Virus record (IMG/VR): IMGVR_UViG_3300048800_000030
Location: 1 to 30,417 of that record
DNA length: 30,417 bases
Reading direction: 5' to 3' (one strand)
DNA from: a virus
The notes beneath the pieces are model-generated. The model was not told where the DNA came from. It did not search any database and saw only the letters and a program-made list of their open reading frames with translations. A program made the translations under genes and the position numbers. This document shows positions 5,627 through 20,687 of the stretch, in pieces (position 1 is the stretch's first letter; each line of letters opens with the position of its first letter).

Positions 5627-7689
5627 TCCGCATAAGTCTCACCAATACCACCCTCAGCAGCCAGGGGCAATCCTGTTGCCCACGCTGGCGTGGTTGCCAT
5701 TACTTTGTTCATGAACTGAAGCGCCAGTTCCCCATCATTAGCGGGGACTACGGTCACGATCTCGTCATGAGTCATCAGGACCACACGCAATTCCTTCGCG
5801 ATTTCAAGCATCTGCTCGCCCACGATGATGCGGTGCAGGCTCTGGATGAGATTCTCCGTGAGTAACGATCCATAGATTTTGGTCCGGCTCCTGCCGTCGA
5901 AGTAGGTAGCGTCTACCTGTTCTGACCACTCAAGCCCACGATAGTTCAATTTCATTTGATTGGGCATCAAAATAAATTCCTTGCCCGTCGTCATGATCCC
6001 GTGAGCGCCGAAGGTTACCTCATCCCCACGCATCATGTGTCCGATCACGGCGTCCATGCGCTGCCAGAACCCTTTACCCCGAGGCAGCCCAACCCCCGTG
6101 ATCATGGGGTAGCGGGCGCGGTACCGGTCCACAAGGGCCTTGGTTACCAGGCAATGCACGAATCGCTCATTCAGGGAAAGTCTCGATGGCATGGCGGCGA
6201 CTTCATTGACGCGCGCCGGGTTATTCAGGAAGGGGCCGGGGTCGATGCGCAGGGCCATCATGTCCGCTTCGGTGAAGATGATAGGCTTCGCGCCGAGTGC
6301 CCCCTTCGCAAATTCCATTGCGGCTTTCATATATCCGCTCCCGAAGCCGAACGAGAGGATTCCGACCTTGCCGACGTGGCCCGGTATCTTATCGGCGGGG
6401 TTATTCTTGCGGTCGATCGGGCGTCCGTACACCGTGCTGGCGTGCTCGCTGTACACGTCGCGGCCAGCGCGGAAGGCTTCTGTCAAATCATCCTGCCCGC
6501 TGCACCAGGCTAGCAATCGGGCCTCCCCCTGCGATGAGTCCGCGCACACGATAACGTGCCCCGGCGGGGCCTTGATGGACTGCTTGAGCACGGCCATCTC
6601 GGGGCGGTTCTCGTTGTGGTTGCTCATGTTCTGAAAGTTGGTTCCGTCCCCGCCTGACCACCGGAGTGTGTGTGCTCCGCAGTAGTTGAGGTAGACCGGC
6701 ATCGGCCCCCGGCTGGCCATGTCAGCGAAGCGCTGCGCCCGTGTCTCGACTATCCCCGATTTCACGCTTGTCCGCGCCTCTGCCAGTAGCCGCACCTGCT
6801 CATCGGGGTCATCAAGCAGTTTCTGCATGGCTGAGTCCGTGCGGGCAAAAGCATAAATCGGCTCCCCCGACGTGGGCGACTTCTTGGTCTCGGGCTCGAC
6901 CCCGTTGGCACGCAGGATCGCCGCGAACTTGTCACTGGATGCAAACGGTTTCTTGTCGATGCCGAGACCAGCGCACGCCTTGCAGGGTATCACACCACTG
7001 ACCAGATCAGGCGCTTGGCCGGTCCCGCTGCACACCGGGCAGGCATAGCCCAGGCGGGTCAGTAGTTCCTTCTTGCGTTGCCGTTCCGTCGAAACTGCGC
7101 CACGTAATCGGGATATGTCGCCGACGAGAACAGGAGACGTGAACATTTTCACGGTCAGATCAATCAGCGCCAGTTCGTCAGCGGGGAACTGTGGTAGGAA
7201 TATATCTGCCAGTCCCATCGTTATGCGCACGTCGCCGTGGGCACAGTAATGCCCGTAGGCTACCAACTCTTGATTTGAGAAATCCGCAAGGTGCTTGCCC
7301 TTACTCCATTTGGTGTCGTCGCCTTTCTCACCGAGTCCATAGATAGGAGCGAGTATCTTCAGACTGTTGCCGGCCTTATTTCCCCGGATTGCTCTCGCCA
7401 TCGATAGCGTGTCGATGAACATCGCAGGATGGACCCCGTAGTGGTGTGAAAGGATCAAGCCATCGAACTGGGCATGGTGCATCACCACGGCGGTATCAGA
7501 CCAGTCCACTTCTTCCTTTACCCACTGTTCGAACCGTTCGGGCAGGAGCCAGTATCGCGCGGGGCCGTCCTCGATACCAACCAGGATAGTCTCATAGCGA
7601 CTGTCCCTGACGTAAGCCTCGGTTCCAAGGTCGGTCACCGAATAGTCGGCGGCCCAGTAGCACTCGAAGTCAATCCCAATTATGTCCAC
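5614..7689 (-). CDS. family A DNA polymerase with 3'-5' exonuclease domain
   Basis: A 691-residue replicative polymerase from GTG 7689, which overlaps the upstream stop as TAGTG; no ATG is available near the exonuclease start. DEDD exonuclease motifs: GIDFECY (Asp7, Glu9), HHAQFD (Asp76) and an ExoIII-like YCAHGDV. Polymerase motifs: TLRWSGGDGTNFQN, motif A CADSSQGEARLLAW (Asp384, Glu389), motif B around Lys441 (HVGKVGILSFGFG) and motif C MTHDEIV (His641, Asp642, Glu643). Two CxxC pairs (C217/C220 and C236/C239, in CPVCSGTG and CKACAGLG) sit between the two domains. In motif B the Arg usually four residues before the Lys appears to be Gly, and the usual Tyr is Phe. There is no 5'-3' exonuclease domain. 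It should copy the phage genome with proofreading. Confidence 0.93.
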   Translation of the reverse strand: MDIIGIDFECYWAADYSVTDLGTEAYVRDSRYETILVGIEDGPARYWLLPERFEQWVKEEVDWSDTAVVMHHAQFDGLILSHHYGVHPAMFIDTLSMARAIRGNKAGNSLKILAPIYGLGEKGDDTKWSKGKHLADFSNQELVAYGHYCAHGDVRITMGLADIFLPQFPADELALIDLTVKMFTSPVLVGDISRLRGAVSTERQRKKELLTRLGYACPVCSGTGQAPDLVSGVIPCKACAGLGIDKKPFASSDKFAAILRANGVEPETKKSPTSGEPIYAFARTDSAMQKLLDDPDEQVRLLAEARTSVKSGIVETRAQRFADMASRGPMPVYLNYCGAHTLRWSGGDGTNFQNMSNHNENRPEMAVLKQSIKAPPGHVIVCADSSQGEARLLAWCSGQDDLTEAFRAGRDVYSEHASTVYGRPIDRKNNPADKIPGHVGKVGILSFGFGSGYMKAAMEFAKGALGAKPIIFTEADMMALRIDPGPFLNNPARVNEVAAMPSRLSLNERFVHCLVTKALVDRYRARYPMITGVGLPRGKGFWQRMDAVIGHMMRGDEVTFGAHGIMTTGKEFILMPNQMKLNYRGLEWSEQVDATYFDGRSRTKIYGSLLTENLIQSLHRIIVGEQMLEIAKELRVVLMTHDEIVTVVPANDGELALQFMNKVMATTPAWATGLPLAAEGGIGETYAECKA

Positions 7690-16930: not shown

Positions 16931-17136
16931 GATTGCACCCTGCGCTCGGGATACTGTATCGAGTATTCCACCTCAGCCGGCATGATGCCGCGCAACTGGG
17001 CAAAGCACATCAGCGCGTACGCCAGCGATCGGGTATCGTCGCCGCACAGTACATCGGACGTGATGCTGCAGTCCGTCCGCGGATCTGTCATAGATAGGCG
17101 CGCGGTATTGGTCTCATCGAGGATGTTGAAGTTCAT
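16927..17136 (-). CDS. hypothetical protein
   Basis: A 69-residue protein with a beta-like start (MNFNILDETNTARLSMTDPR) and a helix (DDTRSLAYALMCFAQLRG). ATGA overlaps on both sides. No family is recognised. Confidence 0.7.
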   Translation of the reverse strand: MNFNILDETNTARLSMTDPRTDCSITSDVLCGDDTRSLAYALMCFAQLRGIMPAEVEYSIQYPERRVQS

Positions 17137-17447
17137 GATTGCACCTCGACAAGCTCACCTATCGGCCGGCCGTTGCTGGTAGCCTCTGCAGTGTAGTATC
17201 CATCTTGTCCATCCCATTGCACACCGCGGAAACCGGCCGCGCGGGATAACTGCCTATCAGTAGGGTTAAAGGTTTCGAACTCGTGTGGTGTCCCCACGTT
17301 GAACACCTCGCGCCGGCATGCGATGGTAACAAGGCCGTGACCGTACCGATCATTGACATCAAAGCCGTCCCGAGCATTGCCCCATACATCATATGTCCAG
17401 AGCTTGAACGTACGGACCTTGACCGGTATGGCTTTCGAATTACTCAT
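17133..17447 (-). CDS. hypothetical protein
   Basis: A 104-residue protein with a predicted beta-rich core (KVRTFKLWTYDVWGNARDGF, DVNDRYGHGLVTI). It is the first gene of the tightly coupled chain after the 17448-17652 spacer and has a GAGGAG-like ribosome site before its ATG. Function unknown. Confidence 0.72.
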   Translation of the reverse strand: MSNSKAIPVKVRTFKLWTYDVWGNARDGFDVNDRYGHGLVTIACRREVFNVGTPHEFETFNPTDRQLSRAAGFRGVQWDGQDGYYTAEATSNGRPIGELVEVQS

Positions 17448-17471
17448 GATTCAACTCCTCGCGCTATTAGT

Positions 17472-17550
17472 GGTTAGCGGGTACCATTTGGGCATATGCC
17501 CCTTGCAGATAGTAATTAGTGTAAAGCGATTTACGTGCCAGATGCTAACC
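17472..17550. promoter_or_regulatory. dyad-rich leader upstream of the 17447 gene
   Basis: This part of the 205-base non-coding stretch 17448-17652 contains a perfect 12-base palindrome gggcatatgccc (17490-17501), a smaller inverted repeat gtaaa-gcga-tttac (17521-17534), and outer arms ggttagc (17472-17478) and gctaacc (17544-17550). Such dyads are candidate operators or RNA leader structures. No confident -35/-10 pair was found. Confidence 0.4.
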
Positions 17551-17582
17551 TATTGATTTATATAGTCCGAGATAATCGATAT

Positions 17583-17643
17583 GTGCCGCGATTGTTCACC
17601 TAATTGGGAATATCCTTTACAATCAAGGGTACAATCGCGGCAC
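17583..17643. repeat. 13-bp perfect inverted repeat, 35-base spacer
   Basis: gtgccgcgattgt at 17583-17595 is matched by acaatcgcggcac at 17631-17643. It lies 10 bases past the stop of the gene at 17653-18084. There is no T-run after either arm, so a classical intrinsic terminator is unlikely. It could be a protein-binding or RNA processing site. Confidence 0.55.
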
Positions 17644-17652
17644 CGTGTGACG

Positions 17653-18084
17653 TTATTTGGCATCGTTCTGGGCGCGCAACGCGTCTCTGATAACGTGCCA
17701 GTTATGGCGCCCGTTGATTACACCTCCGGCCGTGCATACGTGGATAATCTGATTGCACGATCGGCAGCCCGATTGGAGCCCGTCTGCCATCGGTGCGCAT
17801 TTGTTGAACTCGACCGGAGCTTTGCGCGCATGACAATGCGTGCACCTCTTACCGGTGAGCTCTAATTGCGCAAGTTTAGCTGTGCGCTTTGCTTCCTTGC
17901 GGCCAGCGGTCGCATGATCGAGATAGTGCTGGCGTGCAAATAGATAGGCGCGCACAGTTTTAACTGCGTCTCGTACGCTTAATCCTTCGCATAGGGAGCA
18001 TATATTCGATCCTCTATAGTAATCATTCCAGGGTTTAGCTAGTCCACAACATTCGCAGGTAACGGCCGGTTTAGCTTGAGACAT
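17653..18084 (-). CDS. double zinc-finger protein (endonuclease VII-like ribbon)
   Basis: A 143-residue protein, the first gene of the leftward arm. Two cysteine clusters are seen: CECCGLAKPWNDYY with ICSLCEG near the N terminus, and RCTHCHARKAPVEFN with GCRSCNQ near residues 80-110. The second resembles the C-x2-C...F...C-x2-C ribbon of phage HNH/endonuclease VII-type proteins, but the catalytic His-Asn-His part is not evident. It may therefore be a DNA- or RNA-binding regulator. A GGAG site precedes the ATG. Its promoter-proximal place suggests early expression. Confidence 0.68.
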   Translation of the reverse strand: MSQAKPAVTCECCGLAKPWNDYYRGSNICSLCEGLSVRDAVKTVRAYLFARQHYLDHATAGRKEAKRTAKLAQLELTGKRCTHCHARKAPVEFNKCAPMADGLQSGCRSCNQIIHVCTAGGVINGRHNWHVIRDALRAQNDAK

Positions 18085-18500
18085 GGTAAATTCTCCGTTA
18101 AAAGGTTAAAACGCTATATATACGAGTATAGCACGTGTAAAAGGTTCAGTGTATATTTTGACTGATAAAGATAGTATATTAGTATAAAGTACTCGTGAAA
18201 ATACGCAAGCGTATGATTGCGTAGGGTTTTGCGGGTAGGCGGCCGGGCGTTGATACAAGATAAACGTTGAAGTGCGAACTAAACACCTAAAAAATGGATG
18301 AGAGACTTCTATTCACGTGTTTTTACGTGTGTACGCGACACCTCGAACGTTTGAGAATTGTTTCCCTAGGTCTCCTGGAGGTATACAGTCATAACAGTGT
18401 ATAGTTATATATATATAGAGTTAAATCTTTTCTTAATGAATCAATGGGTTATCCGGCCGACCAGTACTCTATACTAATGGACTAATTTAATCAGCGAACA
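18085..18500. other. AT-rich non-coding control region
   Basis: No convincing gene is seen here. The segment is far more AT-rich than the rest of the window and includes tatatatatata near 18407-18417, a 6-2-6 palindrome atacgcaagcgtat at 18201-18214, inverted tataca/tgtata at 18382-18403, and two close TATACT boxes on the - strand (18173-18178 and 18181-18186). Together with the dyad array to the right it could be a DNA-unwinding region of an origin and the leftward promoter zone. Confidence 0.45.
18125..18133 (-). promoter_or_regulatory. leftward extended -10 promoter candidate
   Basis: On the - strand the sequence reads TGCTATACT, an extended -10 (TGn plus TATACT), about 40 bases before the ATG of the first leftward gene (18084). 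The -35 is weak (TACACT at 17-base spacing). It is a plausible source of the whole leftward transcript. Confidence 0.45.
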
Positions 18501-18725
18501 TAAGTCTATTACTATTAGCCAAATAACTTGTATTAACGCTAATCCGCCATGCGCCCAGCAGCATACATCCTCGCAGCTCGGCTACCGAGCGCGCTAACCC
18601 CATGATTTCATACGTTATTGCGGCTGGGCTTTCGGGCGTTGGGGGGTAGGGCGGCGAGGCCCCCGGCGGTTGTGGGGGGTCATATACGCGACAAAGCATC
18701 GCAGCCTGTACCCCGAACGGGGGTG
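18501..18725. other. non-coding stretch before the dyad array
   Basis: No gene is supported here. The left part continues the AT-rich region. From about 18640 the + strand turns G-rich with several GGGGGG runs. One isolated gtacccc half-site (18708-18714) lies ahead of the regular array. Confidence 0.4.
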
Positions 18726-18932
18726 GGGGGTACGTACCCCCTATATGTCCGAGGTACATAAATCTGTACCTCCAACCCCCTAAAAGTATACCCGCTAGGC
18801 GTTCGGGGTACGTAAAATTGTACCTCCTTAGCTTCGGGGGTACACAAAATCCTACCCCGTACCCTTCCGGGGTGCATAAAATTGTACCCCCTGCCCATAA
18901 ATTTGTACCCCGCACCCATTGACATGTGCCCC
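18726..18932. repeat. array of eight GGGGTAC/GTACCCC dyads
   Basis: The best copies are 22 bases: left arm GGGGTAC, an A/T-rich 8-base core such as ATAAAATT, right arm GTACCCC. They lie at 18751-18772, 18805-18826, 18837-18858, 18869-18890 and 18890-18911 (left arm decayed). A coreless 16-base palindrome lies at 18726-18741, and half-like copies end near 18793 and 18932. The right arms begin at 18734, 18766, 18786, 18820, 18852, 18884, 18905 and 18926, so steps are 32, 20, 34, 32, 32, 21 and 21 bases, near two or three helical turns. The last copy overlaps the -35 box of the rightward promoter. This suggests sites bound by a protein on one face of the DNA, as an operator or replication iterons. 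Confidence 0.75.
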
Positions 18933-18947
18933 CAACCGTGCTACGCT
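18919..18947 (+). promoter_or_regulatory. rightward sigma70-like promoter
   Basis: TTGACA (18919-18924), 17-base spacer, TACGCT (18942-18947), with the start expected near 18954. It is followed by TAAGGAGA and the ATG of the gene at 18974. The -35 box lies within the last dyad of the repeat array, so binding there should block this promoter. Confidence 0.7.
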
Positions 18948-18973
18948 AGTTCTTTAACCTAAGGAGACCCACT

Positions 18974-19324
18974 ATGTCCACTTCAACTGCACTGAATACC
19001 CAAACCTTCGGCCGCCTGACCGTTGACCATCTCGGTGTTATGAAACCTACGCCCTCCGGCAAAAATCGGAATCCCTATCTTGACTGCTACTGTTCTTGTG
19101 CCCCCGGTGCAGATGAAGTAGACGAGAATGGAAACGGCTTTGATGTGCCCGTCGTGCGGGTGCGTGCCGACCGCCTGACCTCCGGGCACACCCTTTCCTG
19201 CGGCTGCCTCCTGCGCGAGATGCGTGCCGCTCAGAAGACCCATTCCCCGCGGTACACCGATCTTGTCAAGTGGGCGGTTGGCGTTCGGGCGGAAATTCTG
19301 GGTAGGTACAAAGGCAAGATGTAA
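18974..19324 (+). CDS. phage FGRLTV...SCGCL zinc-binding protein
   Basis: A 116-residue protein, the first rightward gene. It shows TFGRLTVDHLG, then YCSC, VRVRADRLTSGHTLSCGCLL. This pattern (FGRLTV, a YxCxCDCG-like strand, L-SGxTxSCGCL) is common in small phage proteins, sometimes fused to AP2 or HNH domains, and is thought to be a zinc-stabilised nucleic-acid-binding module. AAGGAG lies at ideal distance. Its place right behind the array promoter would suit a regulator that binds the array, but this is speculation. Confidence 0.75.
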   Translation: MSTSTALNTQTFGRLTVDHLGVMKPTPSGKNRNPYLDCYCSCAPGADEVDENGNGFDVPVVRVRADRLTSGHTLSCGCLLREMRAAQKTHSPRYTDLVKWAVGVRAEILGRYKGKM

Positions 19325-19337
19325 AGCCCTTGACTAC

Positions 19338-19366
19338 TTGACACCCCGCCGCAAACCTGTCATACT
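19338..19366 (+). promoter_or_regulatory. rightward sigma70-like promoter with ATG at +1
   Basis: TTGACA (19338-19343), 17-base spacer, CATACT (19361-19366). The expected start, seven bases after the -10, is the A of an ATG at 19373 that opens a four-codon frame (MVSN, stop 19385-19387). The gene at 19416 follows. Confidence 0.7.
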
Positions 19367-19415
19367 TTTCTCATGGTCAGCAATTAAGCGGGCCTGTCAC
19401 AGGAGATAAAACCCT

Positions 19416-19556
19416 ATGAAAACTGCACTGGAAACCGCAATTAAAGCCCTCGTTGAAAAAGCTAAAGGCTCTGTGCCTTCACATGAGGCGATGCAACTCA
19501 CGCAGGCAGCACTCAACCTCGCACACGTTCAGGCGACGCTGAGAGAACCAAGATAG
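19416..19556 (+). CDS. small helical phage protein
   Basis: A 46-residue protein (MKTALETAIKALVEKAKGSV, then PSHEAMQLTQAALNLAHVQA). AGGAGATAAAACCCT precedes the ATG. Short helical proteins with this VPSxEAMxxTQAALNLAHAxA pattern are widespread near phage terminase genes and their role is unknown to me. Confidence 0.75.
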   Translation: MKTALETAIKALVEKAKGSVPSHEAMQLTQAALNLAHVQATLREPR

Positions 19557-19560
19557 CGCC

Positions 19561-19686
19561 ATGACCGCCCGCCGCACACTCACCCCCTGCTGGTCCTGCA
19601 GCGACTACGCTCACCACGAGCATCGCTGGTACTGGGCCGCGCGGCTGTGCGGTTGGGTGCAACGATTGACGGGGTATGGGCGATGA
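19561..19686 (+). CDS. small Cys/Trp-rich protein
   Basis: A 41-residue basic protein with CWSCSDYAHHEHRWYW, a possible small metal knuckle. Its stop overlaps the terminase small subunit ATG (ATGA), so it is likely translated with it. No family is recognised. Confidence 0.6.
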   Translation: MTARRTLTPCWSCSDYAHHEHRWYWAARLCGWVQRLTGYGR

Positions 19687-20195
19687 CCGACTTCCCCCTC
19701 CCCGCCGAGCAGTCCCCGAGCGAGCTTCGCCAGGAGTCGCGCCTCGCTGGCATCCCCGAGTTCTACAAGACCAAGCACGAGAGAATGGCTTGCGAACTCG
19801 CACTGCGGATGGAGGATGCCGAGGCGATCTTTCGCGCCTACGACTACACGCCGGAGCAGGCGGCGACGCTCTGCGAGTCGCAGGCGTTCATCACCCTGCT
19901 GGAGCGGGTCACGAAAGAGATCCAGTCCAGTGGGCTCACTTTCAAAACCAAGGCCAAGGCGATCGCTGAGGACTCCCTACCGTTCGCCTACGAGATGCTG
20001 TCGGACCCCAACTGCTCGTCGGCCGTGCGGCTTGGCACGATCCAATGGGTGGCAAAAATGGCCGGGCACGACGTGCCACCCAAGGCTGACGGGGCGGTTG
20101 GAGGGGGGTTCACACTCTCCATCACCTTCGCCGGGCAGGAACCACAGAAGGTAATATCGTCACACGAACCACTCACAATCGAACAGGAGGCATAA
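19683..20195 (+). CDS. terminase small subunit (putative)
   Basis: A 170-residue protein from ATG 19683 (ATGA overlap); a longer frame to 19647 is rejected. The N-terminal half is helical with an ALRMEDAEAIFRAYDYTPEQ stretch that reads as a helix-turn-helix, the DNA-recognition part of small terminases. The LSDPNCSSAVRLGTIQWVAK segment and the beta-like C-terminal FTLSITFAG match other phage proteins in this position. It would bind the packaging site and present DNA to the large subunit encoded at 23081. The call leans on both content and position. Confidence 0.7.
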   Translation: MTDFPLPAEQSPSELRQESRLAGIPEFYKTKHERMACELALRMEDAEAIFRAYDYTPEQAATLCESQAFITLLERVTKEIQSSGLTFKTKAKAIAEDSLPFAYEMLSDPNCSSAVRLGTIQWVAKMAGHDVPPKADGAVGGGFTLSITFAGQEPQKVISSHEPLTIEQEA

Positions 20196-20447
20196 ATGGA
20201 AAATCAGCACCGGCAGATCACGGGGTACCGCAAACTTTCACCGGCTGAAATCGACATACTCAATCGCATTAAGGCGAGCGCCGTAGGAGTCGGCGAACTG
20301 CTCAAGGCCATCAGCTATGGCAACCCCGGCGGTGGAGACGCACCGGAGGGTGTGGCCGATGCACGGTGGTACATGATCGCACGCACCCACTTCCAAGAGG
20401 GGTTCATGGCTTTATCGCGGTCGATTGCAAAACCCACCACGTTCTGA
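20196..20447 (+). CDS. acb2: Acb2-type anti-CBASS cyclic-nucleotide sponge
   Basis: An 83-residue protein. The start ENQHRQITGYRKLSPAEIDI, then LNRIKA and Gly-rich middle, and the end ADARWYMIARTHFQEGFMAL followed by SRSIAKPTTF match the Acb2/Tad1-hairpin family pattern (HRxIxGYRxLs..EIdxxNxIK ... aDxRWxxIxxTHxQxGFMALxRaVAxPtxF). Acb2 proteins form oligomers that sequester cyclic di- and trinucleotides and so stop CBASS effectors from killing the infected cell. All of the conserved landmarks I recall are present, so it is probably active. It lies between the terminase small subunit and a run of small accessory genes, with one base between it and the terminase stop. Assignment is by motif recall, not by search. 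Confidence 0.85.
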   Translation: MENQHRQITGYRKLSPAEIDILNRIKASAVGVGELLKAISYGNPGGGDAPEGVADARWYMIARTHFQEGFMALSRSIAKPTTF

Positions 20448-20456
20448 GGAAGGAAG

Positions 20457-20687
20457 ATGGATAAAGAGATGCAAGCCGCCGCCCGCAAGAAAATACAGGA
20501 CGAATGGAAGGCCCGGCGGGAAGTTCAAATCAGGGAGTTGCAGGAGTATAATCTTCGATACCCCTGCGACTTCTGTCGGGATTTAGAACATGGGAGCGGT
20601 GACGGTTCGGCCTACGGGTTGGCGTTTGACTCCCATACAATCAAATGTCCTGAGTGTGGGTCGTGCTTTTGGTCTGATGAATCGTAG
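20457..20687 (+). CDS. small zinc-ribbon protein
   Basis: A 76-residue protein: a charged helix (ARKKIQDEWKARREVQIREL), then CDFC at about residues 37-40 and CPECGSCF near 64-71, a possible two-knuckle zinc ribbon. A GGAAGGAAG site precedes the ATG. Function unknown. Confidence 0.68.
   Translation: MDKEMQAAARKKIQDEWKARREVQIRELQEYNLRYPCDFCRDLEHGSGDGSAYGLAFDSHTIKCPECGSCFWSDES

Follow-up and report, generated by a model that had tools for sequence, protein, structure and literature searches.

A helically phased array of directional sites overlapping a candidate phage promoter: a possible lineage-specific operator

The window analysed here, a 30,417-nucleotide stretch from a 30.4 kb virus contig (IMG/VR record IMGVR_UViG_3300048800_000030), carries an array of GTACCCC and GGGGTAC arms at positions 18708..18932 of the plus strand, delimited by dyad counts, repeat finders and a scoring matrix. 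The array is genuine and above chance, and it consists of multiple copies of a single site, the last of which overlaps the -35 box of a candidate rightward promoter, P1. Its best explanation, and one that may well be right, is that it is a lineage-specific cooperative operator of P1 that was acquired together with the gene behind it, ORF 18974. As an operator-like element the array is ordinary in kind; the interesting part is its suspected binder.

Dyads of 22 bp with the form GGGGTAC-N8-GTACCCC, allowing up to three mismatches, occur five times within 18700-18935, compared with a mean of 0.17 in 5,000 dinucleotide shuffles of the same stretch, none of which reached five. Over the whole window there are 11 such matches against 1.3 expected, and two repeat finders also recovered the 32/32/21-bp repeat families. 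These results bear out an earlier sequence-only reading that had placed an array of eight GGGGTAC/GTACCCC units at 18726-18932. Eight right arms are present, starting at 18734, 18766, 18788, 18820, 18852, 18884, 18905 and 18926, but the first of the eight units (18719..18740, plus strand) is partial, having no A/T core, and two arms had been missed, GTACCCC at 18708-18714, which is out of phase, and GTACCCT at 18859-18865. Core and right arm occur together in seven copies, and the total copy number is seven to nine. The copies diverge from one another by up to about a third, with arms and core still conserved. A coding repeat was ruled out (the 32-bp step is no multiple of three), and a search of the array region for known RNA families gave no match at E 1.

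Alignment of seven copies defines the conserved unit as CATAAA-n-TTGTACCCC, a directional combination of core and right arm with invariant positions in both. An inverted, GGGGTAC-like left arm is found in four dyad copies, all on the plus strand: GAGGTAC-ATAAATCT-GTACCTC (18751..18772 in the matrix register), which as a single strand gives a hairpin z of -5.8, GGGGTAC-GTAAAATT-GTACCTC (18805..18826), GGGGTAC-ACAAAATC-CTACCCC (18837..18858) and GGGGTGC-ATAAAATT-GTACCCC (18869..18890). In the three copies that follow at 21-22-bp steps the left arm ends in CCC instead, leaving half units of core and right arm on the same strand: CTAAAAGT-ATACCCG (18773..18794, the corrected register of the third unit), ATAAATTT-GTACCCC (18890..18911, in direct orientation at a 21-bp step) and ATTGACAT-GTGCCCC (18911..18932). 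Because core and right arm are conserved and the left arm is variable, the site counts as directional and its inverted half as optional, in agreement with the earlier suggestion that the units have a direction.

The right arms follow one another at steps of 32, 22, 32, 32, 32, 21 and 21 bp. Two of the steps reported previously, 20 and 34, arose because the third unit had been read at 18786, 2 bp too far to the left; with a matrix derived from the six other copies, position 18788 scores 8.1 and position 18786 -5.3. The remaining steps stand. At a period of 10.6 bp the corrected register gives a resultant R of 0.95 (p about 5e-5 against random steps of 18-36 bp), a p value that is optimistic because the null leaves out tandem duplication, which repeats a step for free, without selection. 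The earlier register gave R 0.88 and p 0.002, so that the helical phasing first noticed there is tighter after correction.

P1 (TTGACA-N17-TACGCT, 18919..18947, plus strand) matches the promoter consensus, with its -35 box at 18919-18924, its -10 box at 18942-18947 and an extended TGC before the latter, and is a candidate active promoter judging by these boxes. Its TTGACA lies within the core of the last copy, ATTGACAT, and the array therefore overlaps a promoter element, as had been claimed for the first rightward promoter. The segment around the -10 box, 18932-18949, matches 6528-6545 of the relative L041 (z 4.3). The array had also been said to lie at the divergence point. It is inside the divergence gap, 18085-18973, but occupies the right end of it, about 580 bp from a plausible leftward -10 box (TATACT, minus strand, 18125-18130). 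To the left of the array, leftward genes encode polymerase A, an exonuclease, an RNA ligase and many small proteins; the rightward block begins with small genes and continues with terminase, a portal-like head-tail adaptor and the major head protein. A second rightward promoter, P2 (TTGACA-N17-CATACT, 19338..19366, plus strand), is conserved in the relatives L043 and L002.

Relatives were gathered via their terminase proteins. Two long ones measure 56.7 and 63.8 kb, which suggests that the window is part of a podovirus-like phage of about 60-66 kb. Isolated phages are remote: the major capsid protein is 33-36% identical to those of Rollin, Y3 and StenR_269, and a nucleotide search of phages with 17000-20500 gave no match. 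The search of related phages for the array unit that had been proposed found it absent, but even the nearest relatives are only about 50-56% identical in the small terminase protein, and the searches made yielded no close relative in which conservation of the spacing could be compared. Six relatives (L043, L046, L008, L011, L007 and L012) have the corresponding slot with neither the array nor gene 18974. Alignments of the array to relatives reach z values of 2.0 or less, except for 4.1 to L048 over a G-run, and those of the ORF 18974 gene about 2 or less.

The surroundings are shared. Reading the divergence regions of about a dozen relatives revealed a common plan of an AT-rich zone, a G-rich element with TTGGGGGG, a small hairpin, a dyad and the small terminase gene. 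The dyad, TGTAAAG-N2-CTTGACA with up to two mismatches, is present upstream of the terminase genes in most of them and often ends in a -35-like TTGACA. In the window the G-rich element (TTGGGGGG...) and its hairpin (GCGA...TCGC, 18688-18702) form a conserved left flank at 18635..18702 (plus strand) with local matches to L043, L046, L007 and L048 (z 3.5-5.8), and 18620-18660 matches several relatives weakly (z 3.5-5.8). The right flank, 19316-19385, matches L043 (z 14.5) and L002 (z 12.5) and includes the window's version of the family-wide dyad, TGTAAAGCCCTTGACT, at 19320..19335 (plus strand), on the stop codon of ORF 18974. A second copy in the window, TGTAAAGCGATTTACG, lies at 17520-17535. 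Array, P1 and ORF 18974 are thus set between the conserved G-rich element and the family-wide dyad, and on the simplest reading of these comparisons they would have entered as one piece of about 600 bp, a cassette whose left boundary is soft; loss of array and gene in all relatives stands as the formal alternative. Because many relatives carry the TGTAAAG-N2-CTTGACA dyad over promoter boxes, operators are usual at the array's slot.

Several other elements of these regions deserve record. The motif TCAAYGNNYTR, in the AT-rich part and always in one orientation, has 16 copies in 14 regions against 0.17 in shuffles (window 18441-18451, plus strand; L043 7570; L041 6012; L048 7028; L046 761; L008 870; L007 674 and 729; L011 286 and 362; L012 8361 and 8462; L003 541; L047 201; L018 4589 and 4664) and may serve this phage family as an origin or as a regulator site. 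Many relatives carry tandem 9-bp units, often inversely repeated and with a unit sequence that differs from phage to phage (lag-9 z 3.5-5.8; L043 ~7520, L041 ~5900, L011 ~256, L012 ~8110, L003 ~690, L015 ~1100, L008 ~500, L021 ~3190); none were seen in the window. Direct-repeat arrays also lie between the AT-rich zone and the G-rich element in L041 (6137-6291, 28 bp) and L047 (343-425, 22/9/13 bp), with sequences unrelated to that of the window array. The two ends of contig G002, positions 1-773 and the last 773 bases, each hold a copy of part of the terminase gene; the copies are 94% identical and reflect a diverged terminal duplication or else the joining of two strains during assembly.

Searches of public collections for the array itself returned little. 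GGGGTNCNNAAAATTGTACCCC had no match in IMG/VR, GGGTNCNNAAAWTTGTACC had 13 single matches and no clusters, and CATAAANTTGTACCCC had 32 matches, one per record. The composite pattern GTACCYC-N{8,13}-GGGGTAC-N8-GTACC gave 13 matches, all with N10; genome-collection matches to it have mixed gaps, as by chance. Only one of the 13, L146, fits the grammar of the window, and the other 12 represent a conserved intergenic element of marine phages, GTACCCC-N10-GGGGTAC-N8-GTACC, in which the N10 has an AATT-like centre and after which comes CATATACG (L141 8334, L144 2524, L147 2892, L151 9543 and relatives). This element was considered as kin of the array and rejected: its A/T core sits in the opposite dyad, between GTACCCC and GGGGTAC, the reverse of the arrangement in the window, and it is therefore probably unrelated.

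The sequence-only reading had left open whether the array is an operator, a set of replication iterons or both. The operator half is the better supported, by directional and phased sites, the last of them on a -35 box, in a slot where relatives carry dyads over promoter boxes. We envisage that a phage-encoded DNA-binding protein would occupy the directional 16-bp site CATAAA-n-TTGTACCCC repeatedly, that spacings of 21-22 or 32 bp, which keep the copies on the same face of the helix, would let neighbouring proteins touch, and that occupation of the last copy would cover the -35 box and shut off P1. The position of the last site, on top of the -35 box, and the alignment of the copies along one side of the helix speak for a cooperative operator, with silencing of P1 more likely than activation.

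The likeliest binder would be the product of ORF 18974 (18974..19324, plus strand), encoded directly behind P1 and so repressing its own promoter. It is a 116-amino-acid, free-standing zinc ribbon (CxC ... SCGCL) that weakly matches an HNH endonuclease family. A profile search found 40 distant loci, mostly of HNH-type homing proteins, that share this zinc ribbon (FGRLTV ... CxC ... SCGCL); at most of these loci the protein continues from the ribbon into a YGGRGIxVCxRW nuclease part, before which ORF 18974 stops. By this comparison ORF 18974 corresponds to a GGRGI/HNH homing endonuclease reduced to its zinc ribbon, with the nuclease part gone, and as such may bind DNA. Its AlphaFold2 model reaches a mean pLDDT of 72.5 with a 27-row alignment (42 in a prediction without alignment), and comparison of this fold, of middling quality, returned no DNA-binding neighbour (best E 0.9).

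With the array missing from relatives, a lineage-specific binder is to be expected, and ORF 18974 fits: viral and genome contigs yielded nothing closely homologous, and no relative has a zinc-ribbon gene at its position. A GTACC array was absent upstream of all the distant homologues examined. The homologues' enzymes are expected to bind as monomers, yet four copies of the site are dyads, and we regard ORF 18974 as perhaps the binder, a tentative assignment. Another binder is possible, because no known family could be assigned to many of the other early genes in the window. The product of the first leftward gene (17653..18084, minus strand), an endonuclease VII-like zinc protein, had been named as a candidate beside that of ORF 18974; it is a poor one, as a relative of it occurs in L003, which has no array, and only ORF 18974 is confined to the array-bearing phage. 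A more specific proposal, which we consider unlikely, is that a homing endonuclease stripped of its nuclease has become a dedicated regulator, zinc ribbon and phased sites travelling as a self-regulated cassette.

Of the competing explanations, that of replication iterons survives best, although we think it rather unlikely, a little more so than the travelling cassette. The repeats would bind a replication initiator, and the AT-rich zone to their left would melt. Iteron plasmids combine direct units with inverted units over a promoter, and the array likewise has directional repeats at near-constant spacing, with direct units at 21-22 bp and inverted units over P1. The gene behind it, though, encodes a zinc ribbon, and no Rep or initiator gene was recognised among the scanned window genes, many of which are small and without family. 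The vicinity of the array contains no perfect DnaA box, and DnaA-box matches in the window, 30 where 25 are expected, are not enriched. Cumulative GC skew, proposed earlier as a check for an origin, has its minimum at 19-20 kb, where the orientation of the genes would by itself put it. The relatives manage to replicate with no such array; they have a different conserved zone in common and keep their own AT-rich zones. The iteron half of the earlier suggestion accordingly fared poorly, and it is retained at this level because of one unrelated record. G011 (L146), a GC-rich phage record (69% GC), has the arm grammar R-17-L-15-R-17-L-15-R with 32 of 35 letters, equal to the window; the highest score in any other record is 25. 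Its GTACCCC/GGGGTAC arms (L146 3292-3362, equivalent to G011 7423-7493), with the 17/15-bp grammar of the window array, have a perfect DnaA box, TTATCCACA, beside them and stand ahead of a gene whose product carries a DnaB N-terminal domain. G011 was, however, found by searching for the arms, and it has no convincing homologue of any window protein.

Nearly as well placed as the iterons, and likewise rather unlikely, is an early-to-late switch in which an early phage protein other than the ORF 18974 product binds the array and activates or represses rightward late transcription. The array does precede a rightward block with terminase, portal-like and capsid genes, and phi29 protein p4 acts through multiple inverted repeats, with A-tracts, that are placed between the early and the late promoters and in part cover -35 boxes (PMC3100819). 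Against this, the conserved P2 (19338), which has no array, already precedes the terminase genes, relatives that would need the identical switch have no array, and the window genes scanned include none with a recognisable p4-like product.

It is improbable that the array comprises sites of a host-encoded regulator, or that its A/T cores act as UP elements or bent DNA, with no phage protein involved. Counting upstream from the inferred start, phased A/T cores do occur at about 50-57 and 71-78 bp, and a host factor that is widespread could account for the similar arm grammar of an unrelated phage. UP elements or bending, however, would leave the conserved GC-rich GTACCCC arms unexplained, and no known host motif was recognised, a literature search for the sequence giving nothing relevant. 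A packaging or recombination site, or a neutral tandem duplication without function, is marginally less probable again: the small terminase gene is close by, 32-bp steps can come from duplication and the arrangement of a dyad about an asymmetric core of 8 bp is reminiscent of recombinase core sites, but relatives, in which a packaging site should also occur, do not have the array, no recombinase was recognised adjoining it, and copies that differ by up to about a third with arms and core conserved are unlike a fresh duplication. Hairpin promoters of a virion RNA polymerase, suspected in StenR_269 (PMC10747016), were also considered and rejected; none of the five large proteins scanned in the relative G001 is an RNA polymerase, and its 2674-amino-acid protein has an ADP-ribosyltransferase domain only.

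If the zinc ribbon does bind the array, a selfish homing gene would have turned into a phage regulator carrying its own control region, and would provide a natural regulator that is small and comes with a phased operator. The comparison with relatives further brings to light two conserved control elements, the TGTAAAG dyad and the TCAAYGNNYTR motif, in little-studied podovirus-like phages of about 60 kb.

Known systems share parts of this organisation. Like iteron origins with an autoregulated Rep promoter, the array combines direct repeats spaced 21-22 bp apart with inverted copies over a promoter and an AT-rich neighbour; unlike them, it has no perfect DnaA box and no recognised Rep gene and is not conserved in the phage family. 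The phi29 p4 sites are likewise several imperfect inverted repeats with A/T tracts between divergent blocks, some over -35 boxes. They are four in number, however, with the consensus CTTTTT-N15-AAAATG, which the window units (GGGGTAC-N8-GTACCCC) do not match; the phages are unrelated, and the window array, being absent from relatives, probably serves one gene. Closest in position are the TGTAAAG-N2-CTTGACA dyads of the same phage family, which occupy the same slot, often have a -35-like end and sometimes come in two copies, but differ from the array in sequence, in being 16 bp long and mostly 28-31 bp apart where doubled, and in being family-wide; the window keeps its own at 19320 besides the array. 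For the proposed autorepression the nearest parallel is I-TevI of phage T4, a homing endonuclease that is an autorepressor via an operator at its own promoter (PMC2988022), the operator lying over the late promoter of the gene. Of the two proteins only I-TevI is known to bind, and it is a GIY-YIG, intron-encoded nuclease with one operator, whereas ORF 18974 is neither GIY-YIG nor intron-encoded, has HNH/GGRGI kin, is free-standing, has lost its nuclease part and faces a phased array of sites. In both, nevertheless, the DNA-binding part of a homing endonuclease, putative in the case of ORF 18974, is encoded behind a promoter; as in I-TevI, the gene for a homing-endonuclease-type zinc protein lies directly behind a promoter with a box covered by candidate sites, and a free DNA-binding part of this kind could repress alone.
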